DNA of 64,000 nt, from assembly GCA_900472175.1 (NCBI GenBank), contig UCHD01000023.1, positions 1 to 64,000 on the forward strand, read 5' to 3'. This stretch comes from Hyphomicrobiales bacterium. Its GTDB lineage: Bacteria > Pseudomonadota > Alphaproteobacteria > Rhizobiales > Rhizobiaceae. Of the stretch, positions 10,137 to 45,513 are shown in pieces. Numbering within the stretch: position 1 is the first letter of the stretch; each line of letters opens with the position of its first letter. The notes under the pieces were generated by a model that was not told where the DNA came from, made no database searches, and saw only the letters and a program-made list of their open reading frames with translations. The position numbers and the translations under genes were made by a program.

Positions 10137-10286
10137 ACCACAAATATGCGCGAAAACCGCAGTTTGGCCATCTTTTCACTAAATCGGTATATTGACACGG
10201 CTTCCCATGTGGTATGCCGGGTCATGTGATGGCAATCTGCCGGCAGGCGCTGTTCTGGTGCCTGCTTGCGAAAAGAGCGAACTGCG

Positions 10287-10751
10287 ATGCTGACCAAAAA
10301 GGGAAAGTACGGATTGAAGGCGCTGGTTGATCTGGCCCGGCTTGATCCGGGTGAGACCGCTTTCATCACTGAGATTGCAAGCCGCAACAATATCCCGAAG
10401 AAGTTTCTCGATACCATTTTGCTGGAACTCCGAAACGCCGGCATCCTGCGCTCGAAAAAAGGCCCTGGCGGCGGTTATTCGCTGTCGCGACCCGCATCCG
10501 AAATTCGTATCGGCCAGGTCGTGCGCACCCTTGACGGTCCGCTGGCTCCGATCCGCTGTGCCAGCCGCACGGCTTACGAAATCTGTGATGATTGCAACGA
10601 TCCGGATACCTGTGAGGTTCGCCGGTCGATGACGACGGTCCGCGATGCCATCGCCGACATTCTCGATACGATGACGCTGGAAGCCTTTGTCAGCAATCCC
10701 GGCCAGACGATACTCAGGGAAGACGAGATCGTCGAGCAGCGCGCTGGCTGA
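10287..10751 (+). CDS. Rrf2-family transcriptional regulator
   Basis: A 154-aa Rrf2/IscR-family winged-helix protein. The N-terminus MLTKKGKYGLKALVDLA is the family start, which decides for the ATG at 10287; the wing carries GGGYSLSRP near residue 62-70. Cysteines at about 90-112 (C...C..C...C spacing around AYEICDDCNDPDTC) could ligate an Fe-S cluster as in IscR/RirA/NsrR, but the spacing differs from RirA, so I do not give it that name. A TTGACA hexamer lies upstream at 10192-10197. No target genes are evident nearby. Confidence 0.85.
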   Translation: MLTKKGKYGLKALVDLARLDPGETAFITEIASRNNIPKKFLDTILLELRNAGILRSKKGPGGGYSLSRPASEIRIGQVVRTLDGPLAPIRCASRTAYEICDDCNDPDTCEVRRSMTTVRDAIADILDTMTLEAFVSNPGQTILREDEIVEQRAG

Positions 10752-10896
10752 CCCTGGAGGTCAAGCGTGTTCGGCGGCCAGACTTGAAGGTTTCGCCTAT
10801 TTTAGCAAATAAAGAGCGCAATTCGGCTGTTTTGGTTTGATCTGAAAGGGCTCTGGTTATAACCGGAGGCCTCGTTGTGGTTTTGGAGTGGCAATC

Positions 10897-11907
10897 ATGG
10901 GTCTCAGGCAAGTCGATACGAATCCTCCTGAAGAGGGCATTGTCATCGAATCGTTGAGGCGATCGATTTCCACCGCGGTTGACGGTATCAACGCCTTCGC
11001 GGCCCAGTTTTCCGCCGATCCTGCGCTCGCACGCAGCCTGGTTGATGCGGTCGAGTTGATCGCAGGCGGCCGTGGTCGCGTGGTTGTTTCCGGTGTTGGC
11101 AAGAGTGGCCATATCGGCCGCAAGATCGCCGCGACCATGGCATCGACCGGAACGTCTGCTTATTTCGTGCATCCGACGGAAGCCAGCCACGGTGATCTCG
11201 GCATGATCACGTCCGAGGATTTGCTCATTCTCCTGTCCTGGTCGGGGGAAACCGTCGAACTTGGAAACATGCTGGCCTATGCCAAGCGTTTCAATGTTCC
11301 GGTTGTCTCGCTTACATCCAATGCCGAAAGCCTGCTGGCACGCAATTCCAGTGTCGCCATCACGTTGCCGAAGGTGCAGGAAGCCTGTCCGCATGGGTTG
11401 GCGCCAACCACCTCGGCGATGTTGCAGCTGGCCGTCGGCGATGCCCTGGCGATCGCGCTTCTCGAGCGGCGCGGGTTTTCCGCGCAGGACTTCAAGACAT
11501 TCCACCCCGGCGGCAAGCTCGGTTCGCAGCTGCTTCTCGTTCAGGATTTGGCGCATGCCGGCGATGCGGTCCCGCTTTTGCCGCTCGGCAGCCCGATGGG
11601 CGATGCGGTCATCCAGATGTCGTCGAAAGGCTTTGGCGTCGTCGGCATTACCGATGCAGCGGGCAAGCTCGCCGGCGTGATCACCGATGGCGACTTGCGC
11701 CGGCATATGTCTCAGGATCTGCTACTCGAGACCGTTGATACCGTCATGTCGCATAACCCACGCGTCATCAAAGGCAGCCTATTGGCAAGTGCTGCCATGG
11801 AATTGATGCAAGCGCAGAAGGTGACGGTGCTGTTCCTGGTGGACGATACCGGCGCTCCAAGCGGCATCCTCCATATCCACGACCTGTTGCGCGCCGGTGT
11901 TGCGTAA
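10897..11907 (+). CDS. kdsD: D-arabinose-5-phosphate isomerase (KdsD/KpsF type)
   Basis: A 336-aa enzyme converting D-ribulose 5-phosphate to D-arabinose 5-phosphate, the first step of CMP-Kdo synthesis. An N-terminal SIS domain (about residues 45-180; VVVSGVGKSGHIGRKIAATMASTG, then the conserved HPTEASHGDLGM and SWSGET stretches) is followed by two CBS domains (about 205-336). The frame opens at a GTG at 10888, but the ATG at 10897 with GGAG 8 bases upstream is the better start. It converges on the rkp capsule genes; Kdo is part of rhizobial K-antigens and of lipid A cores, so it may be the capsule-dedicated copy. Confidence 0.93.
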   Translation: MGLRQVDTNPPEEGIVIESLRRSISTAVDGINAFAAQFSADPALARSLVDAVELIAGGRGRVVVSGVGKSGHIGRKIAATMASTGTSAYFVHPTEASHGDLGMITSEDLLILLSWSGETVELGNMLAYAKRFNVPVVSLTSNAESLLARNSSVAITLPKVQEACPHGLAPTTSAMLQLAVGDALAIALLERRGFSAQDFKTFHPGGKLGSQLLLVQDLAHAGDAVPLLPLGSPMGDAVIQMSSKGFGVVGITDAAGKLAGVITDGDLRRHMSQDLLLETVDTVMSHNPRVIKGSLLASAAMELMQAQKVTVLFLVDDTGAPSGILHIHDLLRAGVA

Positions 11908-32881: not shown

Positions 32882-33640
32882 TTAGAAAGATAGATCCAGC
32901 ACGCGGTCTTCGAACAGGCGGTTGCGGGAGCCTTCGAGGTGGAGGCGCATGGCCTTCTGCGCATCGTCTGCGCGGCCATCGGCGATCGCCTGATAAATGG
33001 CGTTATGCTCGTCGAATACTTTTTCCAGCCCAAGCCGCGGCCCCATCAGCGACAGGCCGTGCAGATGCATGCCGACGGCGATATGCGGTTTCAGTGCTTC
33101 GATGGAGGCCGTATAATAATGATTGTTGGCGGCTTCGGTGACGCAGCGATGGAACACGAAGTCGGCGTCGGTGCGGTGCAGCTGGTGGCTGGTCGCCTCG
33201 CGCAGGTCGGCAAGGGCGGCGGCGATCTTCTGGATGGCGGCTTCGTCGCGCCGCTGGGCGGCAAAGAAGGCGGCGACCGGCTCGATCGTCAGGCGGAACT
33301 CGTAGCAGCGTTGGATATCGGCGATGGTCTTGACCGGTGAATAGGCAAGATGGGTGGCAGGCGAGGCCTGCGCACTGACGAAGGTGCCGGCGCCCTGCCG
33401 GGAGTAGACCATGCCTTCCTCGCGCAGACGCCCCAGTGCATCGCGCACGATCGGGCGGGAAACGCCCATGATCGAAGCCAGTTCATGCTCGCCCGGCAGG
33501 CGGGAATCCGGCGGGTAGTTGCCGGAGCGGATGCGTTCGCGCAGCTGATCGAAGACGCGGTCGACCAGCCGCACGGATTTGACGCGCTCCGGTTTGGCGT
33601 TCGGGCCGGGCTCTTCGATTGCGGGGGCATCCTGCGCCAT
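32882..33640 (-). CDS. FadR-subfamily GntR transcriptional regulator
   Basis: A 252-aa regulator. A winged helix at about residues 22-90 (RLVDRVFDQLRERIRSGNYPPDSRLPGEHELASIMGVSR and VRDALGRLREEGMV) is followed by an FCD-type ligand domain (about 105-235) containing RLTIEPVAAFFAA, DADFVFHRCV and DEHNAIYQAIADG, whose Asp/His residues suggest a metal-bound carboxylate effector. It is the last gene of the transporter operon, 5 bases after the acid-sugar kinase; that spacing fixes the start at 33640 although the frame runs on upstream. It probably controls this cluster by sensing a sugar acid. Confidence 0.88.
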   Translation of the reverse strand: MAQDAPAIEEPGPNAKPERVKSVRLVDRVFDQLRERIRSGNYPPDSRLPGEHELASIMGVSRPIVRDALGRLREEGMVYSRQGAGTFVSAQASPATHLAYSPVKTIADIQRCYEFRLTIEPVAAFFAAQRRDEAAIQKIAAALADLREATSHQLHRTDADFVFHRCVTEAANNHYYTASIEALKPHIAVGMHLHGLSLMGPRLGLEKVFDEHNAIYQAIADGRADDAQKAMRLHLEGSRNRLFEDRVLDLSF

Positions 33641-33645
33641 TTTCT

Positions 33646-34749
33646 TCACCACGCCTGTTTTTCGATCCTTGTCAGAGGGGACGTTGTTTGACTTAGCAGA
33701 TTCTCGGGTACGAGTTTTAGCAAAGAATCGATCGTACCAAACCCCCCCGATTTGACCGCACAACGGATTGTCCGGCCGTCCACGCTTTCGATCTGAAACC
33801 ACGGGATGCCCGCTTCGATCTCACCATTGGGGATCAGCACGCTGGCGCCAAGCGCTTTCAGGATTGCAAGTGCCGTGTCGCCGCCGCCCATCATCAACAT
33901 GTCCGGCCGGGTTTTCTCAACCGCATGCCGGATACAGTCGGCAAAACGGGCAACGACCTGTTCAGGGCTTGAAGTCAGGGCGCCGGAGCAGCGTGCCACA
34001 GCCGGGAGCCCGCAGAGGTCCTCCTGCGACAGTTCCCCGGCGGGCGCGTCTGCAATGGCGGCAAGCTGCCGATGTTCGGCTAGATGTGCGATCTGCTCCG
34101 AGGTAATGGGATCGCGCGATCCGAAGGCAAACAGGGTTTTGGCAGATACTGGCAGTGCCGCGCGAACGGCAGCTGGTCGTGCCAAAGAACGGGCAAACGC
34201 ACTGCCAAGACCACGCGCGCCGACGGCGACCACGGTTGACCAGTTGGCTTGCCGAACCAGATCATCCAGATCGGCATCGGTGCCGGCGTCATAAATATCG
34301 AGCGTCAGCGCATTTGCTGGAAAGAGGCCGCGGATCGGCAGTGGCGTCTCGACGCCCCGGCCGGTCACGGCGCCGTCGATGGTAAAACGCTGCTGATCCG
34401 GAATGGCCGGCGCCACGACGATCCGGCTTCGGCAGGCAACTTCCGCAAGCGCAAGGCTTTCCGCTGCGACATTTCCCTTCAGCCGGGAATCAATCTTCTT
34501 GAACAGAATGGAGGGGGTGGCCGATCCCAGCGCGGAAACAGCCGCCTGCACCTTGCGCACCGCTTCGTCAGCCGAAAGCGCCCGTGATGCGGTGTTGATG
34601 ACGACCACATCTGGATCGCGCGCCAGCGCTTCGGCCACGGCTTCGATGTCGATCGCCACCGCCACCTTCAGGCCGGCTTCGACAAAGGGCGTTCCGGTAT
34701 CGAGCGCGCCTGTCAGGTCGTCGGCAATGATGGCGGCTTGCAGCGTCAT
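33646..34749 (-). CDS. Four-carbon acid-sugar kinase (DUF1537/OtnK family)
   Basis: A 367-aa kinase of the DUF1537 family, shown in other bacteria to phosphorylate D-threonate, L-threonate or D-erythronate at O4. N-terminal IIADDLTGALDTG, the FKKIDSRLKGN stretch and the C-terminal nucleotide-binding LMMGGGDTA are the family hallmarks; length is slightly short of the usual 400 or so. The ATG at 34749 overlaps the stop of the transporter ATPase gene (ATGA). Its pairing with PdxA2 at 44533 is the standard kinase-dehydrogenase set for D-threonate or D-erythronate breakdown to DHAP. The stereochemistry cannot be read from the sequence. Confidence 0.88.
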   Translation of the reverse strand: MTLQAAIIADDLTGALDTGTPFVEAGLKVAVAIDIEAVAEALARDPDVVVINTASRALSADEAVRKVQAAVSALGSATPSILFKKIDSRLKGNVAAESLALAEVACRSRIVVAPAIPDQQRFTIDGAVTGRGVETPLPIRGLFPANALTLDIYDAGTDADLDDLVRQANWSTVVAVGARGLGSAFARSLARPAAVRAALPVSAKTLFAFGSRDPITSEQIAHLAEHRQLAAIADAPAGELSQEDLCGLPAVARCSGALTSSPEQVVARFADCIRHAVEKTRPDMLMMGGGDTALAILKALGASVLIPNGEIEAGIPWFQIESVDGRTIRCAVKSGGFGTIDSLLKLVPENLLSQTTSPLTRIEKQAW

Positions 34750-35741
34750 CCGGGCAGGCCCTCGGTGACGGCGTGACAGGCGACCATATGGCCAGCGCGG
34801 GCCTCCCTCCATTCCGGCACCACCTTGCCACAGATCTCCATAGCGATGGGGCAACGAGTGTGGAAGCGGCAGCCGGATGGCGGGGATAGCGGGCTTGGCA
34901 CGTCGCCCTGCAGGATCTGCCGTTGGCGGCTGCGCTCATGCGCCGGATCGGCCTCCGGTACGGCTGAGAGAAGGGCCTTGGTATAGGGGTGTAATGGGTG
35001 CTCGAACAATTCCTCGCGGGTGGCCAGTTCGGCAAGACGCCCGAGATACATGACGCCGACGCGGTCGCTGATATGGCGGACGACGGCGAGATCGTGGGCG
35101 ATGAACAGATAGGTCAGCCCGTATTTCTGCTGCAGGTCGAGCAGCAGGTTGATGATCTGCGCCTGCACGGAAACGTCGAGCGCCGAGATCGCTTCGTCGC
35201 AGACGATGAATTTCGGCTGGCAGGCCAGCGCCCGGGCAATCGCCACGCGCTGGCGCTGGCCACCGGACAGTTCGTGCGGATAGCGGGAGGCAAAGCGTGG
35301 CGGCAGGCCGACATCGGCAAGCAGTGTCGCGATCCGGTCCTTCAGTTCTGCCTTGGTGGCCAGCTTGTGAAACAGGATCGGCTCGCCAACGGCTTCGCCG
35401 ATGGTCATGCGCGGGTTGAGCGTCGAGTAGGGGTCCTGGAAGACGATCTGCAATTGGCGCCGATAGGGCCGCATCGCCTTTTCGTCGAGCTCAACGATAT
35501 TCTTGCCCTGATAAATCACTTTGCCTTCGGTGGCCCGGTGCAGATTGAGCAGGGTGAAACCCGTGGTCGACTTGCCGCAGCCGGATTCGCCGACGAGGCT
35601 GAGTGTCTCGCCCTCGAGAATGTCGAAATTGACGTCATCAAGCGCATGCACGGTGGCCGCCCGCTCCCCGAACGCGCCGAGCCGGACGTGGAAGTGTTTG
35701 ACCAGATTTTCGATGCGCATCAGCGGCTGAGCACCCATCAC
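34746..35741 (-). CDS. Oligopeptide/nickel-type ABC transporter ATP-binding protein (DppF/OppF type)
   Basis: A 331-aa ATPase. Walker [10 protein letters not shown] (about residues 51-59), signature LSGGQRQR, Walker B FIVCDEAISALD, and a C-terminal oligopeptide-ABC extension with a CRFHTRCPIAMEIC cysteine segment that in homologues binds an Fe-S cluster. It forms a heterodimer with the ATPase encoded just upstream (4-base overlap). Together they drive import of the ligand bound by the 38834-40489 protein. Neighbouring catabolic genes indicate a sugar acid or oligosaccharide, not a peptide. Confidence 0.92.
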   Translation of the reverse strand: MMGAQPLMRIENLVKHFHVRLGAFGERAATVHALDDVNFDILEGETLSLVGESGCGKSTTGFTLLNLHRATEGKVIYQGKNIVELDEKAMRPYRRQLQIVFQDPYSTLNPRMTIGEAVGEPILFHKLATKAELKDRIATLLADVGLPPRFASRYPHELSGGQRQRVAIARALACQPKFIVCDEAISALDVSVQAQIINLLLDLQQKYGLTYLFIAHDLAVVRHISDRVGVMYLGRLAELATREELFEHPLHPYTKALLSAVPEADPAHERSRQRQILQGDVPSPLSPPSGCRFHTRCPIAMEICGKVVPEWREARAGHMVACHAVTEGLPG

Positions 35742-36775
35742 GCGGCCTCCAGTTTTCTTTGGGCGACGAAGCAGGCGACGCGGTGGGCGCCGTCCTGGCC
35801 AAGGCCTTCCAGCGACGGGACGCGCTCATGACAGATCGCTTCCGCCAGCGGACAGCGCGGCGCAAACGGACAGCCTTTTGGGCGGCGGCCGGGTTCAGGC
35901 GGCGTGCCGCCGATGGAACTGAGGCGCGTCGAGCGCTCGTCGGACAGTTTCGGGATCGAGGCGAGCAGCCCTTGCGTATAGGGGTGGCTCGGGTTGGCAA
36001 ACAACGCATCGACGGGCGCGTCCTCGACTACGGTGCCGGCATAGAGAACGTTGATGCGGTCGACCAGGCCGGCGATCAGCGCCAGATCATGGGTGATCCA
36101 GACCACCGACATGCCGAGCTTGTCACGCAGGTCCTTGACCAGATCGACGATCTGCGCCTGGATCGTCACGTCGAGCGCGGTGGTCGGTTCGTCAGCGATC
36201 AAGAGCTGTGGATTGCAGGCAAGACCGATGGCGATCATCACGCGCTGGCGCATACCGCCGGAGAGTTCATGCGGATAGGCGTCGAGACGATCTTCTGCGC
36301 CGGGAATACCGACAAGCTTCAAGAGTTCGCCAGCCCGCTTGCGCGCCTCCGCCTTCGACATGCCGCGGTGATAGATCAGCGGCTCGGCCAGCTGTTGGCC
36401 GATGCGCATCACCGGATTGAGCGAGGTCATCGGATCCTGGAAGATGAAGCCGACATCGCCGCCGCGCACCTTTCGCAGGTCCGAATTCGACATTTTCTGC
36501 AGGTCACGCCCGGCGAAATTGGCTTCACCCTTGGTGACTTTAATCTTGTTGGGCAATAGCCGCATCATGCTGAGCATGGTCAGGCTCTTGCCGCAGCCGG
36601 ATTCGCCGACGATGCCGAGCGTCTCGCCCTTATCGACATGCAGGTCGATGCCGTCCACGATGGTGGCGGGACCGGTACGTGTCTCGATCTCGATGGTCAG
36701 GCCCTTGACGTCGAGCAGGCGCTCGCCGGTCTTAGCCGGCGGTTCTGGACGGATATTGCTGGCCATCATCATCAC
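35738..36775 (-). CDS. Oligopeptide/nickel-type ABC transporter ATP-binding protein (DppD/OppD type)
   Basis: A 345-aa ATPase. Walker A GESGCGKS at about 56-63, signature LSGGMRQR at about 168-175, Walker [13 protein letters not shown] and the C-terminal oligopeptide extension with [14 protein letters not shown]. Four ATG codons in a row stand at the 5' end (36775 and following), overlapping the stop of the permease gene, so the exact first residue is open by up to three. It pairs with the DppF-type ATPase downstream. Confidence 0.92.
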
Positions 36776-37731
36776 TTCGCTCCGCGCGGATTGAGGGCAT
36801 CATTGAGGCCGTCGCCGAGGAATGAAAACGCGACGGAGGCAAGGCCGAGGACGGCGGCAGGTGCTGCCAGCAGATGCGGATAATGCTGCCAGACGCGCAG
36901 GCCGTCGGAGATCATGTTGCCCCAGCTTGGGGTCGGCGGGTTGACGCCGACGCCGAGGAACGAAAAGGCGCTTTCCAGAACCATGGCGGTGCCGAGACCG
37001 GCGCTGACGGCGACGATCAGCGGACCCAGCGCATTCGGCACGACATAGCGCATCAGGATGATGCGGTTGGTCAGCCCCAGCGCCTGGGCTGCGGTGATAT
37101 AAGGCCGCGAGCGGATGGAAAGAACCTGGGCGCGGACGAGACGCGCATAGGGCGGCCAGGAGATCAGCGCCATCGAGCCGAAGACCAGCAGGAAATCGAC
37201 CCAGATGGTTTCGCGATAGACCGGATTGAGTGTCGCCAGATAGCGGCTTTCCATCCAGCTTGTGATTGGCGATTTCAGCGAGGCGTTGATAACGACGACG
37301 AGCAGAAGGTTGGGGATCGACATGGTCATGTCGGTCAGCCACATGACGATCCGGTCCAGCCAGCCGCCGAAGAAGCCCGCCAAGGCGCCGAGCGTTACGC
37401 CGATCACCACAGCAATGAAGGTGACGACGATGGCGACGAGGAACGCTGTGCGTGTACCGTAGACAACGCGGCTGAAGACATCGCGGCCGAGGTCGTCGGT
37501 GCCGAACAGATGCGACAAGGAGGGGGCCAGATTACGCGAATTCAGGTCTTGACTCAGAAAGTCGTAGGGCGTCAGGTACGGCCCGAACAATGCGGTGAAG
37601 GCAAGGATGACGACGACCACGAGACCGAAGACCGCAAGCTTGTTGCGGCGCAGTCGGTGCCAGGCATCGCGCCAGAGGCTGACGGGCGGTTCGATTTCGG
37701 CGGCGGTGCCGGGCATGGGAACGACGGACAT
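36772..37731 (-). CDS. ABC transporter permease (DppC/OppC type)
   Basis: A 319-aa inner-membrane protein with six predicted helices. An N-terminal OppC_N-type segment (RLRRNKLAVFGLVVVVILAFTALFGPYLTPYD) precedes the BPD_transp_1 domain. The cytoplasmic coupling helix EAA-type motif is VRAQVLSIRSRPYITAAQALG at about 207-227. It forms the channel with the DppB-type permease encoded 2 bases upstream. Four-base overlap with the following ATPase gene shows a single tight operon. Confidence 0.92.
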   Translation of the reverse strand: MSVVPMPGTAAEIEPPVSLWRDAWHRLRRNKLAVFGLVVVVILAFTALFGPYLTPYDFLSQDLNSRNLAPSLSHLFGTDDLGRDVFSRVVYGTRTAFLVAIVVTFIAVVIGVTLGALAGFFGGWLDRIVMWLTDMTMSIPNLLLVVVINASLKSPITSWMESRYLATLNPVYRETIWVDFLLVFGSMALISWPPYARLVRAQVLSIRSRPYITAAQALGLTNRIILMRYVVPNALGPLIVAVSAGLGTAMVLESAFSFLGVGVNPPTPSWGNMISDGLRVWQHYPHLLAAPAAVLGLASVAFSFLGDGLNDALNPRGAK

Positions 37732-37733
37732 GG

Positions 37734-38690
37734 TCAGCGGCTCCTTCTTGTGTCGTTGGCGCGCGGGTCGAGCAGTGGGTAGAGCACGTCGACAAGCAGG
37801 TTGGAGATCATCACCAGGAACGAGCCGATCAGCGTGATGGCGAGGATGACGGGATAATCGGTATTGGTCAGCGCCTGAACGGTGAGGCGGCCAAGACCGG
37901 GCAGGCCGAAGACCAGCTCGACGAAGATGGCGCCGTTGACGATGGTGATCATGATCAGGCCGAGCTGGGTGACAACGGGCGTCAGGACCGGGCGCAGGAT
38001 GTGGCGCAGTGCCACCATCATTTCCGGCACGCCCTTGGCCCGGGCAGTACGGACGAAATCTTCCGACAGAACTTCAATCACGGCAGCGCGGGTCTGGCGT
38101 ACGATCAGCGCGATCGGCTGGAAGGAAAGAACGAGCAGCGGCAAAAGGATGCGCACGTCGAAAACACCGCCCCAGCCATAGGGTACGGCGGAGCCCGGCA
38201 GGATCATGATCAGCATGACCATCAGCATCGGGCCTGCGACATAGGCCGGGATTGCCCAGAGAAACAGCGCTGAGCCGAGAATGGCATAGTCGGTGCGGGT
38301 GTTTTGATTGAGCGCTGCGATCAGCCCGAGAGGAATGGCAACGACAGCGGTCAGGATGACGGAACAGAGCGCCAGCTTGAAAGACACAGGTGCTGCCGCG
38401 GAAATCATCGCCCAGACGGAACGGCCGGAGCTCAGCGAATTGCCGAAATTGCCGTGCAGCAGGTTCCAGATATAGCTGCCGAACTGGATGAGGAACGGCC
38501 GGTTGAGGCCCGCACTTTCGCGGATCGCCTCGATGCGCTCGGGATTATAGGCAACGTCGCCGGGCGCCCGCAGGAAGATCAGCTTGATCGGGTCACCGGC
38601 ACCATAATAGGCCAGCGCATAGACGCCGAGCATGACAAGAAGGACGGATGGTATCCAGACGACGAAACGGGTCGCGATGTAACGCAGCAT
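37734..38690 (-). CDS. ABC transporter permease (DppB/OppB type)
   Basis: A 318-aa inner-membrane permease with the standard DppB start (MLRYIATRFVVWIPSVLLVMLGVY) and a BPD_transp_1 domain from about residue 95. The EAA-type loop is VLSEDFVRTARAKGVPE at about 205-222. It lies 143 bases after the binding-protein gene; that gap holds a stable hairpin which may lower permease expression relative to the binding protein. Confidence 0.92.
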   Translation of the reverse strand: MLRYIATRFVVWIPSVLLVMLGVYALAYYGAGDPIKLIFLRAPGDVAYNPERIEAIRESAGLNRPFLIQFGSYIWNLLHGNFGNSLSSGRSVWAMISAAAPVSFKLALCSVILTAVVAIPLGLIAALNQNTRTDYAILGSALFLWAIPAYVAGPMLMVMLIMILPGSAVPYGWGGVFDVRILLPLLVLSFQPIALIVRQTRAAVIEVLSEDFVRTARAKGVPEMMVALRHILRPVLTPVVTQLGLIMITIVNGAIFVELVFGLPGLGRLTVQALTNTDYPVILAITLIGSFLVMISNLLVDVLYPLLDPRANDTRRSR

Positions 38691-38781
38691 GGCAGTCTCC
38701 CACCCTTGGTTTCAGAAGATGAAGCTTCGAGCTTTGCCCTGCGGGGTCAAGCGCCGCAATCATACTCCAGCATTCGCAATC

Positions 38782-38810
38782 TGTGCGGAAACGGTTTCCG
38801 CCTCCGCACA
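38782..38810 (-). promoter_or_regulatory. Intra-operon hairpin between binding-protein and permease genes
   Basis: TGTGCGGA and TCCGCACA form an 8-bp inverted repeat; an inner GCGGAAAC/GTTTCCGC palindrome is an alternative fold. It lies 24 bases after the binding-protein stop, on the operon transcript. Such hairpins commonly protect upstream mRNA or partly terminate transcription, giving more binding protein than permease. There is no T-run, so full termination is unlikely. Confidence 0.55.
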
Positions 38811-38833
38811 GAATAAGGTGTCAGCGCGGCCGC

Positions 38834-40489
38834 TTAGCCAGCGACCGAAATGTCCCAGGGGGCAACAACCTGCCAGTCGAGGTTCTTGTCCATGCCGGTG
38901 ACCTTGTCGGTCGCCCAGCGCGACATCGCCTGCGCGTACCAAGGGATGAAGCTCCAGTCTTCGCGGAACGCCTTCTGGGCTTCGAGCGCCAGAGCAACAC
39001 GCTGCGGATCGTCCACCGACTTGGTGGCGGCTTCGGCGAGCAGGCTGTCGACCTTGTCGTTCTTGTAACCGCCGAGCTTGTTCTGCGCGTTCGACGAGGT
39101 CGAGGCGATGGAACCGGCAAGATAGGATACGGCATCGGGAACACGGGTGCCGACGTCGTCGCGGAAGATCTGCACCGCGTTCTGGTCGGGGCCTGCATAG
39201 GCATCCTGCTGCGGCTTCATATCGACGGCGGTGATGCCGAGGTTCTGGCGCCATTGCTCGGCGATGAACTGGGCGGCAGCCTCGATGGCGGGGCCGGAAA
39301 CGCCGACGAAGAGCAGCTTGGGCAGACGTTCCGGGCCACCATAGCTCGATTCGGCCAACAGCTTCTTGGCGCCTTCCGGGTCGTAGGGATAAGGCTCGAA
39401 GCCGGAGTTGTCGGCGCCGGGGACTGAATTGATGACCTGGTCGGTTTTCTTGTGCGGGCCATCCGGGAAGGACGCCTTCATCAGGCCATCGCGGTCGACG
39501 GCCATGATCAGCGCCTGGCGGACTTTCGGATCGTCCATCGGCGCGCGCGCCGAGTTGAACCAGAAATGCTGGCTGGTCGGGATCAACGGGCCTTCGGCAA
39601 AGCTCGCGCCGAGGTCCTGGATGATGGTCGAGGTGACCAGTTCCGTATGGGCATTGTATTCGCCGGACTTCAGGAGCGATGTCGCGGTGACGTTGTCTTC
39701 GATCGAGTCGATCTCGATACGGGCGAGCTTCGGCTTCGGACCGAAGAAGTTTTCGTTGGGCTCGAACACCAGTTTGCCGGCATCGAGATCGATGCTGGTC
39801 AGCTTGAAGGGACCGGAATAGACGGCGCTGCTATCAGGCATGTACCAGTCGGTGATTTCCTCGCCATCTTCGCCTCGAGATTGCGAGGCCTTGGTGATCG
39901 GCGCGATATGGTTGCCGAGCCGCATGAAGAAGATCGGGTCTGATTCCGACAGGGTCACGACAACCGTGCCTTCGTCCGGCGTCGCGATGCCTGAAATTTC
40001 CTTGGCCTTGCCGGCGCTGACATCGGCATAGCCTGCGACCTTGCTCAGTACCTGGTCGGCGCGCTGGTTCTTGGTATTCGGCATGGCCGAGACATTCCAG
40101 GAACCCTTGACGTCTTCAGCGGTGATCTTGCTGCCATCCGAGAAAACGGCCTTCGGATCGATCTTGAAGGTCCATGTCTTACTGTCAGCATCCGGCTCCC
40201 AGCTTGTAAAGACGTAAGGGTGCAATTCTCCCTTCGAGTCGAAATACATCGGTGACGCCCACCAGGCGGAATTCCAGCGATACGGCACGCCACCGCCGCG
40301 CAACGGCGACCAATCCTGGTTGAAGGCCGGGTTTGCGACCTTGAGCACCTGGCCTTCCTGGGCCATGACGATCCGGGCATTCAGGCCGAACAGGCCAAGC
40401 GCCACACTGGTGCCGAGGCCGAGTTTCAAGGCGTTGCGGCGCGTCATCTGCGGCTGCGACGAGCCGCCTTCCTTGTTCTGATTAGACAT
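38834..40489 (-). CDS. Family-5 extracellular solute-binding protein, Tat-type signal
   Basis: A 551-aa SBP_bac_5 protein. Residues about 15-45 carry a twin-arginine signal (TRRNALKLGLGTSVALGLFGLNA, then MAQEG), suggesting export in folded form. The mature protein shows the family features: KTWTFKIDPKAVFSDGSKITAEDV and VRQALIMAVDRDGLM. Members bind peptides, opines, oligosaccharides or nickel. The ATG at 40489 has GGAGG 5 bases upstream, so the in-frame TTG before it is not used. First gene of the minus-strand operon; neighbours suggest a plant-derived sugar acid or oligosaccharide. Confidence 0.9.
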   Translation of the reverse strand: MSNQNKEGGSSQPQMTRRNALKLGLGTSVALGLFGLNARIVMAQEGQVLKVANPAFNQDWSPLRGGGVPYRWNSAWWASPMYFDSKGELHPYVFTSWEPDADSKTWTFKIDPKAVFSDGSKITAEDVKGSWNVSAMPNTKNQRADQVLSKVAGYADVSAGKAKEISGIATPDEGTVVVTLSESDPIFFMRLGNHIAPITKASQSRGEDGEEITDWYMPDSSAVYSGPFKLTSIDLDAGKLVFEPNENFFGPKPKLARIEIDSIEDNVTATSLLKSGEYNAHTELVTSTIIQDLGASFAEGPLIPTSQHFWFNSARAPMDDPKVRQALIMAVDRDGLMKASFPDGPHKKTDQVINSVPGADNSGFEPYPYDPEGAKKLLAESSYGGPERLPKLLFVGVSGPAIEAAAQFIAEQWRQNLGITAVDMKPQQDAYAGPDQNAVQIFRDDVGTRVPDAVSYLAGSIASTSSNAQNKLGGYKNDKVDSLLAEAATKSVDDPQRVALALEAQKAFREDWSFIPWYAQAMSRWATDKVTGMDKNLDWQVVAPWDISVAG

Positions 40490-40781
40490 CTGATCCTCCA
40501 ATAGATGCTGTCATCGCGCCCTCCTTCTGCCGGTTCGGGGCAGTCTGCCGCGCCATGATGAGGCCGGACACTGGATCGTTATTGTAAATATGTCAACATT
40601 AAATCTTGGTTATATTCACGCCTGTCAGAAGAAGTCATATAAAACTTATATTTTTCAATAGGATAATTTTCTGTTGAAATTTTCAATGAAGAATTTTTCT
40701 TGACAAGTTGTCATGATTGGAGAAAAAGCGAGGGGCGGCGGCGCCAAAACGGCCGGACGGCTGCGGGAGGAGTTTGCGAAA
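40490..40781. promoter_or_regulatory. Divergent promoter region with candidate FadR-family operator
   Basis: This 292-base AT-rich region separates the transporter operon (leftward) from the aldolase operon (rightward). A perfect 13-bp palindrome, TGACAAGTTGTCA, is at 40701-40713, overlapping a plus-strand TTGACA. A second TTGACA reads on the minus strand at about 40593-40598. Position and symmetry suit control of both arms by the FadR-type regulator encoded at 32882. The protein-site pairing is inferred. Confidence 0.5.
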
Positions 40782-41687
40782 ATGACGATTCACAAGATCA
40801 CCGGCGTCTATAGCGCCGCTACGACGCCGCTCAATGCCGATGACACGCCCGATCTCGGCCTGTTCACCGCCCATTGTCAGCGGCTTCTGAGCGAGGGCTG
40901 CCACGGTGTGGCGCTGCTCGGCACGACCGGCGAGGCCAATTCGTTTTCGTCCCCAGAGCGCCGCGATATTCTCGAGGCGGCCTTGAAGGCTGGGATATCC
41001 GGCGATCAGTTGATGCCAGGGACGGGCGTAGCGGCCATTCCGGAGACGATCGAGCTGACGCGGCATGCGTTGTCCAATGGCGTGAGCCGGGTCGTCATGC
41101 TGCCACCCTTCTATTACAAGGGTGTATCGGACGACGGGTTGTTTGCCGCCTATGCACGGATCATCGAGACGATCGCCGACGACCGGCTGCGTGTCGTTCT
41201 CTATCACATTCCCCAGGTTTCCGGCATTCCGCTGACCCTGCCACTGATCGGCCGGTTGATCGAGGCTTTCCCGGATACCGTCGTCGGCATCAAGGATTCG
41301 GCCGGCGACTTTGCCAATATGGAAGCGCTGCTGGCGGCATTTCCAGGCTTTTCCGTGCTCGCTGGCGCTGATCCGCTGCTCTTGCCGCTGGTCAAGGCCG
41401 GTGGGGCAGGCTGCATCACCGCAACCTCCAATCTGGTCGCAGACTCCCTTCGGGCCGTCTACGATCATGCCAACGACCCGGCTCGTGCTGAAGAGGTCGA
41501 GACGGCGCAGGCGCGCATCAATGCCTATCGTTCGCTGTCCAATTCTTACGTCCAGATCCCTACGATCAAGGCGATGGTCGGCCTGAAGAATGGCAACTCC
41601 GCCTGGGCACGGCCGCGACCGCCGCTGATGGCGCTGGGCGCCGCCGACCAGGCGGATCTCGCTGTCAAATTCACTCAATTACCATAG
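40782..41687 (+). CDS. Pyruvate aldolase/lyase of the DHDPS-NAL family
   Basis: A 301-aa (beta/alpha)8 class I aldolase. GTTGEAN is at 47-53, the catalytic Tyr141 in LYHIPQ and the Schiff-base Lys171 in GIKDSAGD. The family forms or cleaves C-C bonds with pyruvate: dihydrodipicolinate synthase, N-acetylneuraminate lyase, KDG aldolase and others. A housekeeping DapA role is unlikely here, because it sits in a catabolic operon with a sialidase-like hydrolase 12 bases downstream. Retro-aldol cleavage of a 2-keto-3-deoxy sugar acid is inferred. The ATG at 40782, with GGGAGGAG upstream, gives the family N-terminus. Confidence 0.88.
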   Translation: MTIHKITGVYSAATTPLNADDTPDLGLFTAHCQRLLSEGCHGVALLGTTGEANSFSSPERRDILEAALKAGISGDQLMPGTGVAAIPETIELTRHALSNGVSRVVMLPPFYYKGVSDDGLFAAYARIIETIADDRLRVVLYHIPQVSGIPLTLPLIGRLIEAFPDTVVGIKDSAGDFANMEALLAAFPGFSVLAGADPLLLPLVKAGGAGCITATSNLVADSLRAVYDHANDPARAEEVETAQARINAYRSLSNSYVQIPTIKAMVGLKNGNSAWARPRPPLMALGAADQADLAVKFTQLP

Positions 41688-41699
41688 GAGGAGCGCCTC

Positions 41700-42902
41700 A
41701 TGACATTGGGCTCCGGGTTGAAGCCTGAGGAAATTCCGCCGCTTATGAACGGCGCCATCGTCTCTCATACGGTAGAAAGCCATCGTTTCGATGCCTTCCT
41801 GCCGTCGCCTTGCGTACAGAACCACGCCGCCAACCTGGCATTCCTTGCAGATGGCACGCTGACCTGCGTCTGGTTTGGCGGCACGATGGAAGGCATGGGC
41901 GATATTTCGATTTACATGTCGCGGCTGGCCGCCGGTTCCGCTGTATGGTCGGCGCCGGAGAAGATGTCGGACGATCCGCAGAAATCCGAGCAGAACCCGC
42001 TGGTGTTCACGGCGCCGGATGGAAAAGTCTGGCTGATCTTCACGTCGCAGACGTCGGGAAATCAGGACGGTGCCGTCGTCAAGCGGCGGATTTCCGAGGA
42101 TGGCGGGCGCACATTCGGCCCTGTCGATATTCTCTGCGATAGTCCCGGCACATTCGTGCGCCAGCCGGTCATCGTCAACGGGAACGGAGACTGGCTCTTG
42201 CCGGTGTTCCGCTGCATTGGCGAGCCCGGCCAGCGCTGGACCGGTAATGCGGACACGGCTGCTGTTCTGCTCTCGCAGGATGCCGGAGCGAGCTGGAAAA
42301 TGGTTGATCTGCCGGGCAGCGTGGGCGCAGTCCATATGAATATTGTCCCGCGTGGCGATGGGCAAATGGTGGCCTTCTTCCGAAACCGCTTTGCTGAGCA
42401 GATCCTGCGCAGCACATCAAGCGATGATGGCCTGACCTGGAGTGCGCCGGCGCCAACCGCGTTGCCCAACAACAATTCATCGATCCAGGCCATTGCCCTC
42501 AAGGATGGGCGGATCGCAATTATCTGCAATCATTCCAATGCGTTGACCTCGAGCGACCGGCGCCATTCTCTTTATGATGAGATCGAGGCGGAAGAGGGCG
42601 TGCAGGCTGTGTCTGCAGGGGCTGGTTCGTCTGTCGATGGCAGGCCAAAGGCGATCTGGGGCGTGCCGCGCGCGCCAATGAGCCTCGTCTTATCCGGTGA
42701 TGACGGAGAGACCTTTGGTGCTCCGGGACATCTGGAAGCCGGTGATGGCTATTGCCTCACCAACAATTCGAAGGATGCTCTCAATCGCGAATATTCCTAC
42801 CCGTCGATCATCGAGGGACCGGATGGCGCGCTCCACATCGCCTACACCTATTATCGCCGGGCGATCAAATATGTGCGGCTGGAACCTGGGTACGGTTCCT
42901 AA
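41700..42902 (+). CDS. Sialidase-like six-bladed beta-propeller hydrolase, cytoplasmic
   Basis: A 400-aa BNR-repeat protein. Four Asp-boxes are visible: SEDGGRTF (132-139), SQDAGASW (192-199), SDDGLTW (241-247) and SGDDGETF (332-339), the mark of sialidase-type propellers. There is no signal peptide or membrane segment, so it should act inside the cell on an imported substrate. NHAANLAFLADGTLTCVWFGGT near residue 41-62 is typical of a sialidase-related family without known substrate; the usual sialidase arginine triad cannot be placed with confidence. An AGGAGG site precedes the ATG. It follows the aldolase gene and ends before a strong terminator. Confidence 0.85.
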   Translation: MTLGSGLKPEEIPPLMNGAIVSHTVESHRFDAFLPSPCVQNHAANLAFLADGTLTCVWFGGTMEGMGDISIYMSRLAAGSAVWSAPEKMSDDPQKSEQNPLVFTAPDGKVWLIFTSQTSGNQDGAVVKRRISEDGGRTFGPVDILCDSPGTFVRQPVIVNGNGDWLLPVFRCIGEPGQRWTGNADTAAVLLSQDAGASWKMVDLPGSVGAVHMNIVPRGDGQMVAFFRNRFAEQILRSTSSDDGLTWSAPAPTALPNNNSSIQAIALKDGRIAIICNHSNALTSSDRRHSLYDEIEAEEGVQAVSAGAGSSVDGRPKAIWGVPRAPMSLVLSGDDGETFGAPGHLEAGDGYCLTNNSKDALNREYSYPSIIEGPDGALHIAYTYYRRAIKYVRLEPGYGS

Positions 42903-43010
42903 GGTCTCGCCGCAGGGGCGAGGTTGCCTTCATCGGGCGTGAAGTTGCGGGTCTTTGTGGCCGTGAAATCGAGCGCGGCCCAAGGTGATTTTGACAAATA
43001 GAGTTTTGTT

Positions 43011-43053
43011 TTGCGATTTCCGCGCCGAAAGGCGCGGAAATCGCAATCTTGTT
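43011..43053 (+). terminator. Very strong hairpin terminator of the aldolase-sialidase operon
   Basis: TTGCGATTTCCGCGCC (43011-43026) and its exact complement (43031-43046) form a 16-bp stem closed by a GAAA tetraloop, followed by TCTTGTTT. It lies 109 bases after the sialidase-like gene. The remaining 285 bases up to the dehydrogenase gene at 43331 are AT-rich, contain a GGTA/TACC half-symmetry near 43119-43133, and probably hold a separate promoter. Confidence 0.85.
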
Positions 43054-43330
43054 TACAACAGGTGTGTCGATTTTAACGCCCGGCCTGCCGGTCCTCTTGT
43101 TTCTTTAATGGGGCTGTCGGTACCAGGTTTACCATAGTATTATATATTAAAAACAATAAGTTGATAGTTCGTACTCTGTGTTCGCGTTGCCTGATGCGGG
43201 TGCGAAAGGCGATAAAAAGCGGCTTCCACGCACCTTGGCTCTTGCCAAGAAAGCCTGTTTTGGATAACAAATTTACATGTTGGTTGCGATCCCCGGTGGA
43301 TGGAGCGACGAAAACAACGAGGACATGTCC

Positions 43331-44464
43331 ATGACCAGCTTGAGCGCCCCCATCACGATCATCCGGCCGGATATCATCGAATTCGGCGTCGGCGTGGCAG
43401 GCAGGCTTGGACAATGGGCGAAAAACCAGGGCTTTGCGCGCATCCTCGTCGTGTCGGATGCGTTCAACGCATCGCGTGTCGGCATTCTCGATCTGCCGGG
43501 AGATGTCACGGTCTTTTCACAGGTAAAGCCGGAGCCGGATACCGACAATCTCGATCTGGTGTTGGCGGCTGCCGATGGCGCTCAGGCCGATCTGATCGTC
43601 GGCTTTGGCGGCGGCAGCGCCATGGATCTGGCCAAGCTCGCCTCAGTCCTTTCCGGTTCCAGTCAGACACTGCGTGATGTCGTTGGCGCGGGCAAGGTGG
43701 CGCAGCGCCGCCGGGCCGGACTGGCGCAGGTGCCGACGACATCCGGTACAGGTAGCGAGGCCGGTATTCGCGCCCTGGTCACCGATCCCGCAACGCAGGC
43801 GAAGCTGGCGGTCGAAAGTATCCACATGCTGGCTGACATCGCCGTCATCGACCCCAGCCTGACCTTCACGGTGCCAGCCGCGACGACAGCTGCGACCGGC
43901 GTCGATGCCATGGCCCATTGCGTCGAGGCTTTCACCAATCGCAAGGCCCACCCGATAATCGATCTCTATGCGATCGAAGGCGTGCGTCTGGTCGGGCGTT
44001 ATCTTGCCCGGGCGGTTGCAGATGGCGCGGATGCTGAGGCTCGGGCCGGTCTGTCGCTTGCCTCGCTTTATGGCGGCTTTTGCCTTGGGCCGGTCAATAC
44101 CGCTGGCGGTCATGCGCTTGCCTATCCGCTCGGCACGCGCTGGCATGTTGCACATGGCGCAGCCAATGCCTTGATCTTTCCACATGTGCTGGCGTTCAAC
44201 GCGCCCGCAGTCGTCCACAAGACGGCGCAGGTAGTTGCAGCGCTTGATCTCAAGGCTGCTGCCGGCCAGGCCTCGGTCTTTGATGCGGCGTTCGGTTTCT
44301 GCGCCGATCTGGGTATCGAGATGCGGCTCTCGGCCTTGGGCGTGCCGGAAACTGATCTTGGCGTCATGGCGGATGACGCGTTTGCCATTCGCCGCCTGCT
44401 CGATAACAATCCGCGCGATCTTTCGCGCGACGACATTCTCTCGATCTATCGAACCGCCTACTGA
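43331..44464 (+). CDS. Iron-type alcohol dehydrogenase
   Basis: A 377-aa group III alcohol dehydrogenase. NAD(P) motif GFGGGSAMDLAK at about 97-108; PTTSGTGSE near 136-144; metal ligands in DAMAHCVEAF and in HGAANALIFPHVLAFN. The family reduces aldehydes or keto groups (1,3-propanediol dehydrogenase, maleylacetate reductase and others). With PdxA2 68 bases downstream and the aldolase operon nearby, reduction of a four-carbon aldehyde acid to a tetronate is inferred. The ATG at 43331 has CGAGGA 7 bases upstream; the ATG at 43325 and the open frame from 43277 are less likely. Confidence 0.88.
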   Translation: MTSLSAPITIIRPDIIEFGVGVAGRLGQWAKNQGFARILVVSDAFNASRVGILDLPGDVTVFSQVKPEPDTDNLDLVLAAADGAQADLIVGFGGGSAMDLAKLASVLSGSSQTLRDVVGAGKVAQRRRAGLAQVPTTSGTGSEAGIRALVTDPATQAKLAVESIHMLADIAVIDPSLTFTVPAATTAATGVDAMAHCVEAFTNRKAHPIIDLYAIEGVRLVGRYLARAVADGADAEARAGLSLASLYGGFCLGPVNTAGGHALAYPLGTRWHVAHGAANALIFPHVLAFNAPAVVHKTAQVVAALDLKAAAGQASVFDAAFGFCADLGIEMRLSALGVPETDLGVMADDAFAIRRLLDNNPRDLSRDDILSIYRTAY

Positions 44465-44532
44465 TTGGAACAATCCTGCCACGGCAGTGCCGGAGTGCAG
44501 GGATGGCCTGAGCGCCGCACGGAGGACTGAAC

Positions 44533-45513
44533 ATGACCACATCACGCGTAGCCGTCACGCTGGGGGACCCGGCGGGTGTCGGTCCGGAAGTCATCGTCAA
44601 GGCTTTGGCGTCACTGCCGGAAGCCGACAGGGCAAACTTCGTCGTCGTCGGCAATGTCGAGGCGCTGGAGCGGGCCAACAAAGTGACGGGAACGGAACTG
44701 CATTTCTCTGCAGCGCCCACCGCAGGTGCGATTGCCGTCGATGAGGTTGCGATCGATGGAACCCTGCCTGCGATTGGCAAGGTCAGCCCGGTTGCCGGCG
44801 ATGCGTCGGTGCGCTATATCAAGCGCGCGGTTGAGCTGGCCATGTCCGGTGCGGTCGATTGCATTGTCACGGCGCCGATCAACAAGGAAGCGATGAACCT
44901 TGCCGGCCATCATTTCGATGGCCATACCGGCCTTCTCGCGCATCTGACGGGGTCAAAAAGCTCCTTCATGCTCTTGGCGTCTGAGCGGCTGAACACCATC
45001 CACGTCTCGACACACGTCTCGCTGCGCACCGCCATCGAACGGGCGACTGTCGATCGTGTGTTGGCGACGATCGAGGCGGGGCATCGCCATTTCCTGCGTC
45101 TCGGCCGCAAGGCACGGATCGCCGTCGCCGGCATCAATCCGCATTGCGGCGAGGGCGGCCTGTTCGGCGATGAGGACACGAAATTCCTGGCGCCGGCTGT
45201 CGAACTGGCGCAGGCCAAGGGTATAGATGTCGTTGGCCCGATTTCCGCCGATACCGTCTATGCCCGCGCCTATGGCGGCGCCTTCGACCTTGTCGTCGCT
45301 CAGTATCACGACCAGGGGCATATCCCGATCAAGCTCGTTGCCTTCGAGACCGCCGTCAATGTCTCACTCGGCCTGCCGATCGACCGGGTGTCCGTCGACC
45401 ACGGGACGGCCTTCGACATTGCCGGCACCGGCAAAGCCAACCACGTCAATATGCTGTCGGCGATCGACTATGCGCGGATGGTGGCACGATCACCAAAGAC
45501 GGCTGCCGCCTGA
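44533..45513 (+). CDS. pdxA2: PdxA2-type 4-phospho-D-threonate/erythronate dehydrogenase
   Basis: A 326-aa member of the PdxA family, NAD- and divalent-metal-dependent oxidative decarboxylases of 4-phosphohydroxy acids. Conserved parts: [12 protein letters not shown] near the N-terminus, [13 protein letters not shown] with HFDGHT, metal-ligand His in [14 protein letters not shown] and [14 protein letters not shown]. PdxA itself makes pyridoxal phosphate, but the PdxA2 subgroup, found with DUF1537 kinases, converts 4-phospho-D-threonate to DHAP and CO2. The kinase lies in the same cluster (33646), which supports PdxA2. Distinguishing the two by sequence alone is not certain. Confidence 0.87.

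Follow-up and report, generated by a model that had tools for sequence, protein, structure and literature searches.

Positions 32882–45513 of a 64,000-nucleotide stretch of contig UCHD01000023.1 (Hyphomicrobiales bacterium, assembly GCA_900472175.1; hereafter the window) hold eleven genes that may encode a route from 3-deoxy-D-lyxo-2-heptulosaric acid (DHA), a sugar of the plant polysaccharide rhamnogalacturonan II (RG-II), into central metabolism. The genes form two arms that diverge around 40502–40712: a minus-strand arm (32882–40501) with the gene set gntR-kinase-oppFDCB-sbp, and a plus-strand arm (40713–45513) that carries nal-bnr and then feADH-pdxA (Table 1). Open reading frames (ORFs), Pfam and NCBIfam recovered every gene where the first-pass annotation had placed it and in the family it had named, along with the two facing arms that it described; the Pfam scan covered ten of the eleven proteins, and for the PdxA protein the models were those of NCBIfam alone. 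Four genes probably start elsewhere than their longest ORFs: the kinase at ATG 34749, which overlaps the oppF stop; gntR at ATG 33640, which comes after the kinase stop; NAL at 40782; and the Fe-type alcohol dehydrogenase (FeADH) at 43325 or 43331. The gntR/kinase/oppF junctions of the minus arm thus look as they would in an operon.

Table 1. Genes and candidate operators of the cluster, in window coordinates.
Feature	Position	Strand	Basis
FadR/GntR-type (FCD) regulator	32882..33640	-	Pfam FCD 3.7e-22, GntR 7.8e-21
DUF1537 four-carbon acid sugar kinase, predicted D-threonate kinase	33646..34749	-	SBD_N 2.1e-28, NBD_C 9.3e-15
ABC ATPase, OppF/DppF type	34746..35741	-	ABC_tran + oligo_HPY
ABC ATPase, OppD/DppD type	35738..36775	-	ABC_tran + oligo_HPY
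ABC permease, OppC type	36772..37731	-	OppC_N + BPD_transp_1
ABC permease, OppB type	37734..38690	-	BPD_transp_1 9.6e-35
Family-5 solute-binding protein	38834..40501	-	SBP_bac_5 1.2e-62; Tat-like twin-Arg leader MTRRNALKLG
Operator candidate TGTAAATATGTCA, divergent promoter region	40583..40595	+	exact pattern TGTAAAKWTGTYA
DHDPS/NAL-family class I aldolase, predicted ulosarate aldolase	40782..41687	+	PF00701 1.2e-40, Lys/Tyr motifs
Cytoplasmic sialidase-fold protein, predicted hydrolase/opener of ulosarate glycoside or derivative	41700..42902	+	BNR_2
Second operator candidate TGTAAATTTGTTA, before feADH-pdxA	43265..43277	-	motif match
Fe-type alcohol dehydrogenase, predicted threuronate reductase	43325..44464	+	Fe-ADH 2.8e-33, ADH_Fe_C 7.8e-47
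PdxA2-type dehydrogenase, predicted D-threonate-4-phosphate dehydrogenase (dihydroxyacetone phosphate (DHAP) + CO2)	44533..45513	+	TIGR00557; nearest PDB chains

The eleven genes are a conserved unit. A homology search with the sialidase-fold (BNR) protein, the check on recurrence that had been proposed earlier, bore the expectation out: among the best 80 of the 196 loci found, 78 keep all eleven genes, and the remaining two (L029 and L083) are truncated where their contigs stop. Order and strand are the same in 76 of the 78 full loci, and pdxA is shifted ahead of nal in the other two. The 80 loci include copies from Rhizobium, Pararhizobium, Sinorhizobium, Neorhizobium, Agrobacterium, Aminobacter and one Devosia assembly. 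The source genome, a 5.46 Mb draft, is apparently of the Rhizobiaceae, with Rhizobiales isolates, Rhizobium and Pararhizobium closest among named relatives. It contains one BNR match (E ≤ 1e-30), two DUF1537 matches and four PdxA matches; because such family matches are few and the genes recur together in the 78 loci, the cluster is not a product of chance.

The kinase and the dehydrogenase point to a four-carbon (C4) acid, likely D-threonate. The best NCBIfam model for the window kinase is D-threonate kinase NF047819 (141.3 bits, below the cut-off of 450), and its best PDB chain is 4xfm. The window PdxA passes TIGR00557 (336.5 bits; cut-off 290.35) and has D-threonate 4-phosphate dehydrogenase NF002891 as its second-best model (318.6 bits, below the cut-off of 583). 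The PdxA2 type assigned in the first pass agrees with the nearest solved structures, PdxA2 2hi1 (292 bits) and the D-threonate 4-phosphate dehydrogenase 6e85 (285 bits); the E. coli PdxA chains 1ps7 and 1ptm reach 161 bits. A vitamin B6 role was set aside in view of these PdxA2-type structures and of the three other PdxA matches in the genome. The relatives in E. coli (534 bits for the kinase and 680 for the dehydrogenase), Klebsiella (508 and 667) and genome G366 (615 and 681) all pass the cut-offs of 450 and 583, so that the earlier choice of D-threonate as the C4 acid is supported by curated models for these three copies and not for the window's own pair.

The window aldolase matches PF00701 at 139.5 bits (cut-off 22.1), with the Schiff-base Lys in GIKDS and the Tyr in YHIP; the residue numbers given earlier, Tyr141 and Lys171, are right if the protein begins at Met24 (40782) and correspond to Tyr164 and Lys194 in the long ORF. 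It stays below the cut-offs of N-acetylneuraminate lyase (NAL) NF003164 (99.1 versus 281 bits), of DapA, the 4-hydroxy-tetrahydrodipicolinate synthase model TIGR00674 (129.4 versus 206.15), of KdgD (52 versus 374) and of 5-dehydro-4-deoxyglucarate dehydratase (60 versus 278); the second-best model is HpaI-NOT-DapA, TIGR02313 (103.5 bits; cut-off 396.7). In an unrooted tree, aldolases with the same partner genes fall into two separate groups, a NAL-type group (19 rows, support 99/98) and an Atu-type group (15 rows, 95/93). Six unlinked NAL homologues are placed outside the linked NAL-type group, the sample had no unlinked Atu-type members, and a fragment from L107 was left out; the NAL relatives of L178–L182 and L114 occur without the core partners and were set apart. 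In the alignment, 14 of 16 Atu-type rows and 0 of 19 NAL-type rows retain the DHDPS-type Arg that follows the catalytic Tyr motif. This Arg binds aspartate semialdehyde, itself a C4 aldehyde acid, at its carboxylate. As a side observation, the DHDPS-family gene of S. meliloti RCAM1750 (L107, 5726–6605) is broken across two frames, by decay or sequencing error, and the same gene of S. meliloti 1021 (L210, 2726–3604) matches in one piece.

The BNR protein is a six-bladed propeller with Asp-boxes, as the GH33 sialidases are defined. Four Asp-box-like motifs (S-x-D-x-G-x-x-F/W) lie at residues 132–139, 192–199, 240–247 and 332–339, and inspection of the first 50 residues by eye revealed no N-terminal signal; both features had been reported in the first pass. 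In a phmmer alignment, His212 sits on the Glu of the SAEAQF segment of sialidase NanC, presumably the catalytic residue, and Arg228 is aligned with an Arg of NanC. His212 and Tyr367 are invariant across 40 BNR rows, as are Arg154, Arg228, Arg230, Arg324 and Arg386. These rows comprise 38 sequences and, in addition, those of E. coli and Pantoea ananatis; the 22 positions compared were preselected as conserved in earlier alignments, and a four-residue fragment from L163 that was counted in an earlier 39-row set was dropped. By eye, against the sialidase motif, the first Arg of the triad appears to be replaced by His42. The propeller is probably not a canonical sialidase. It would instead be a cytoplasmic ulosarate-processing enzyme of non-canonical catalysis, with His in place of the sialidase Glu, a role that forms part of the joint reading graded below. 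The 50 listed Foldseek and VIA rows for the propeller include no GH143 entry, which excludes nothing.

The FadR-type protein scores 98.3 bits against the NanR subfamily model, below the cut-off of 260, and probably binds both operator candidates. The pattern TGTAAAKWTGTYA has two matches in the window, where 0.11 are expected with at most one mismatch, and the genome has exact copies at two positions only, 40583 and 43265. Among 79 relatives the exact motif is found in the sbp-nal gap of 65 and in the bnr-feADH gap of 49, and it is absent elsewhere in the 1.60 Mb of their loci; the pattern was derived from the same loci in which it was later counted (shared 10-mers, L083 skipped), and the whole-genome count is less circular. 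An exact-palindrome ranking gave nothing informative on the operator. We set aside an unlinked regulon, given that the exact operator occurs just twice in the genome and that a one-mismatch scan found 11 matches in all versus 6 for a reversed-pattern control; the nine one-mismatch sites were dropped with it. In one expression study (PMC7105596), pRL90097, named pdxA2, is raised in gmcA-mutant bacteroids (ratio 1.23, P 0.0332). By gene count, pRL90101 would be the binding protein of the R. johnstonii copy of the cluster, a numbering that we infer, and a link to plants can be argued through this presumed identity.

Beyond the close relatives, 11 of 398 genomes from the phylum and 32 of 297 from the order have a BNR match at E ≤ 1e-30, which makes 37 distinct genomes with the source genome included (in G728 the match lies on a 4.6 kb contig). 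Within ~10 kb of BNR, the DHDPS family is present in 32 of these, DUF1537 in 31, PdxA in 25 and FeADH in 24; all four core genes occur in 18 genomes, three in 9, two in 6, one in 1 and none in 3. The last three are G255 and G728, which carry a second cluster, feADH-pdxA-kinase-DHDPS, with an IclR regulator, and G739, which has pdxA-SDR-kinase-gntR away from BNR. Genome G587 also has a second cluster (feADH, TctC, TctA, DHDPS, a hydroxyacid-dehydrogenase-like gene, pdxA, gntR and kinase), and in G642 feADH-pdxA lies ~9–11 kb from BNR. The genes for aldolase, FeADH, kinase and PdxA therefore tend to go together as a module; BNR and its transporter tend to form another, upstream, which can lie apart or be missing. 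Distant Pseudomonadota mostly retain the four core genes but exchange transporters, and those beside the set include a two-ATPase ABC system, a fused-ATPase ABC system, an SSS symporter, TctC/TctA and SLC13/CitMHS. No FeADH was found at 1e-60 in G147, G566, G738 and G739, and in all four an SDR adjoins pdxA. That carriers and enzymes have been exchanged independently while the steps stay the same speaks for a single linear pathway. BNR accompanies core genes in Roseomonas and in a saline-soil alphaproteobacterium as well.

Other genes stand beside the distant copies. L177, whose core cluster has no BNR, carries an FAD-linked oxidase (10230–11726) between the aldolase and kinase genes, which suggests that oxidation of a 2-hydroxy acid could be another way into the route. 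A D-2-hydroxyacid-dehydrogenase gene adjoins pdxA in L152 (13049–13999, Pfam), and by eye similar genes do so in L244 (9476–10435) and L245 (9582–10550). An SDR of ~230 residues accompanies BNR and the SSS symporter in L108 (13617–14294), L109 (9028–9720) and L153 (11370–12059).

The set extends into gammaproteobacteria. The BNR gene of G366 was matched in 1043 of 5426 E. coli genomes, at ~72% DNA identity among the matches listed, and three of these records were read in context. In E. coli A42 (L252, 5868–14847), DeoR, D-threonate-4-phosphate dehydrogenase, dtnK, FeADH, a DHDPS-family protein, TerC, a sialidase-family protein 51% identical to the window BNR, YhcH and SLC13 lie between glnS and nagE; two more strains carry the same locus. 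The TerC-family protein there is found in addition to the SLC13 permease, which matches CitMHS. The Klebsiella record (L250) has DeoR, D-threonate-4-phosphate dehydrogenase, kinase, DHDPS, SSS, a BNR match and YhcH; its gene table omits FeADH and BNR, the PLSDB tables being incomplete and the BNR match itself present. Pantoea ananatis has D-threonate-4-phosphate dehydrogenase, FeADH, DHDPS, SSS, BNR, YhcH and SDR, with no kinase listed nearby, and Pantoea piersonii just SSS, BNR, YhcH and SDR. YhcH adjoins BNR in 3 of the 37 genomes and in the Pantoea, Klebsiella and E. coli records; the E. coli protein scores 90.6 bits against the N-acetylneuraminate anomerase model (cut-off 160). Its place beside the propeller hints at an ulosonic-acid substrate, and the TTT and SLC13 carriers fit a dicarboxylate.

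Gene content, linkage, the shared motif and the curated-model assignment of some homologues to D-threonate are direct observations. We infer every reaction of the following scheme, the order of its steps, the pairing of regulator and operator and, above all, the identity of the substrate. The ABC transporter would import the sugar, and the sialidase-fold protein may release or open it. The aldolase would then cleave a 2-keto-3-deoxy C7 diacid by a retro-aldol reaction to pyruvate and D-threuronate, which FeADH would reduce to D-threonate; the DUF1537 kinase would phosphorylate D-threonate, and PdxA2 would oxidise and decarboxylate the product to DHAP and CO2. Through the shared operator, the FadR-type protein would regulate both arms as well as feADH-pdxA. 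The stereochemistry claimed in the first pass was retraced by hand in Fischer projection and agrees: cleavage of DHA between C3 and C4 yields pyruvate and D-threuronate, reduction of which yields D-threonate. Its pathway logic is much strengthened by the recurrent set of a pyruvate-type aldolase, an alcohol or aldehyde dehydrogenase, a C4-acid kinase and PdxA2, and its remark that Kdo would yield arabinose and hence no C4 acid also holds. In the same projection C4 turns into the carbonyl, so the xylo isomer yields the same product; a pyruvate aldolase combined with D-threonate therefore implies a 3-deoxy-2-heptulosarate with threo configuration at C5/C6 and lyxo or xylo at C4. DHA, the lyxo form, is the known natural sugar that fits. 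We are confident that the topology through D-threonate is right. Taken as a DHA route by ABC import, aldolase, FeADH, kinase and PdxA2 through D-threonate, the gene set is slightly better than an even prospect, and for DHA as the main substrate, a well-founded prediction, the chances are evenly poised. In plants DHA has so far been found in RG-II alone, according to an RG-II review (PMC12168206). The joint reading, a dedicated DHA (RG-II) route via D-threonate in rhizobia, Pantoea, Klebsiella and roughly one in five complete E. coli genomes, with the propeller as a non-canonical ulosarate enzyme, is offered tentatively, at somewhat under even chances.

The same topology could serve another 3-deoxy-2-heptulosarate, such as the xylo epimer, or a 2-hydroxy precursor, of microbial, algal or host origin and not from RG-II. 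Loss of the C4 configuration at cleavage means that D-threonate leaves C4 unfixed; the L177 oxidase, in a cluster with no BNR, the hydroxyacid dehydrogenases beside pdxA (L152 and, by eye, L244 and L245), and BNR with core genes in E. coli, Roseomonas and the saline-soil alphaproteobacterium would suit such a substrate. DHA is nonetheless the known natural candidate, and the rhizobial hosts are plant-associated; we regard this variant as unlikely, if worth keeping in sight. A locus shared by two loosely related pathways, with kinase and PdxA2 acting on imported D-threonate or D-erythronate and aldolase and propeller on a different sugar acid, is favoured by the arrangement in E. coli and Klebsiella, where the kinase and PdxA2 genes diverge from those of the aldolase. 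It is improbable, however, since the core genes remain together where BNR is elsewhere, L152 is a single co-directional run from DHDPS to SDR, and both aldolase groups keep the same partners.

Ordinary catabolism of sialic acid, Kdo or Kdn by a GH33-type sialidase and N-acetylneuraminate lyase is favoured by the sialidase fold, the NAL superfamily, the NanR-like regulator (98 bits), YhcH in the gammaproteobacterial copies and the neighbouring nagE-nagBACD in E. coli. The aldolase, however, reaches 99 of the 281 bits for NAL, the eleven genes include none for ManNAc, GlcNAc or arabinose, Kdo and Neu5Ac yield no C4 acid, and the D-threonate enzymes of three relatives exceed curated cut-offs, all of which makes this reading very improbable; the Kdo/Neu5Ac route was set aside for want of matching downstream genes in the set and of a match to the NAL model. 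The chance is a shade smaller still that the DHDPS-family protein is a sugar-acid dehydratase like KdgD, with the route ending elsewhere: the family is functionally mixed and the KdgD model does match at 52 bits, but this is 52 of 374, 5-dehydro-4-deoxyglucarate dehydratase is as far off at 60 of 278, and the kinase/PdxA2 pair would be left without a substrate.

Several observations weigh against a dedicated DHA route, and none of the computed results bears on what the substrate is. Kinase and PdxA of the window score below the D-threonate cut-offs (141 of 450 and 319 of 583 bits), as are those of L152 (181 and 339), those of L164 (104 and 300) and the L247 kinase (111). In ten of the 37 genomes no more than two core genes lie near BNR; core clusters occur without an adjoining BNR in L177, L247 and L248, G124 (the genome of L177) has no BNR match in the E ≤ 1e-30 search, and no kinase was seen near BNR in G322 or in the Pantoea ananatis gene table. 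We are unsure of a glycosidase role for the propeller, given its His212 at the NanC Glu and the presence of SSS, SLC13 and TTT carriers, which point to a small substrate. No RG-II depolymerase is named in the annotated neighbourhoods read, and no search aimed at such enzymes was made. Carriage by E. coli, beside nagE-nagBACD, implies that the substrate need not be directly plant-derived, and the genome has no further exact operator copy outside the cluster.

Next to the cluster, a Capsule_synth gene (PF05159; 31612–32745, minus strand) abuts the minus arm. KpsS/KpsC-type members of this family are Kdo transferases, and the gene is probably unrelated to the cluster: none is listed next to the cluster in L106.

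If true, the DHA reading would supply a full DHA route with one gene per step, a purpose for the D-threonate enzymes of E. coli and Klebsiella, and a suggested function for one set of proteins that carry the annotation exo-alpha-sialidase. It would tie plant cell-wall chemistry to rhizosphere and gut bacteria, and carriers could feed on DHA freed by root tissue or by RG-II-degrading gut bacteria. We found no DHA catabolic pathway described in the open-licence literature searched. D-threonate catabolism by DtnK and PdxA2, reportedly described by Zhang and colleagues in 2016, uses the same kinase and dehydrogenase families, and in E. coli and Klebsiella both proteins score above the curated equivalog cut-offs; here, in contrast, the pair is coupled to an aldolase, FeADH, a sialidase-fold protein and a transporter, and D-threonate would arise inside the cell. 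Nan catabolism is alike in its transporter, sialidase fold, anomerase (the YhcH/NanQ family, in the gammaproteobacterial copies), pyruvate lyase and NanR-like regulator. It differs in that the present set is without amino-sugar genes, the lyase is below the NAL cut-offs, His stands in the propeller where NanC has Glu, and the predicted product is a C4 acid and not a hexosamine. HpaI-NOT-DapA (TIGR02313) is likewise of the DHDPS family and is named for cleavage of a C7 dioate, of which DHA would be a 5,6-dihydroxy analogue, although the window aldolase is far below its cut-off of 396.7. Bacteroides degrades RG-II with the DHA-hydrolase GH143 and so shares the proposed target sugar; its glycosidases depolymerise RG-II, whereas the set described here is predicted to act in cytoplasmic catabolism.

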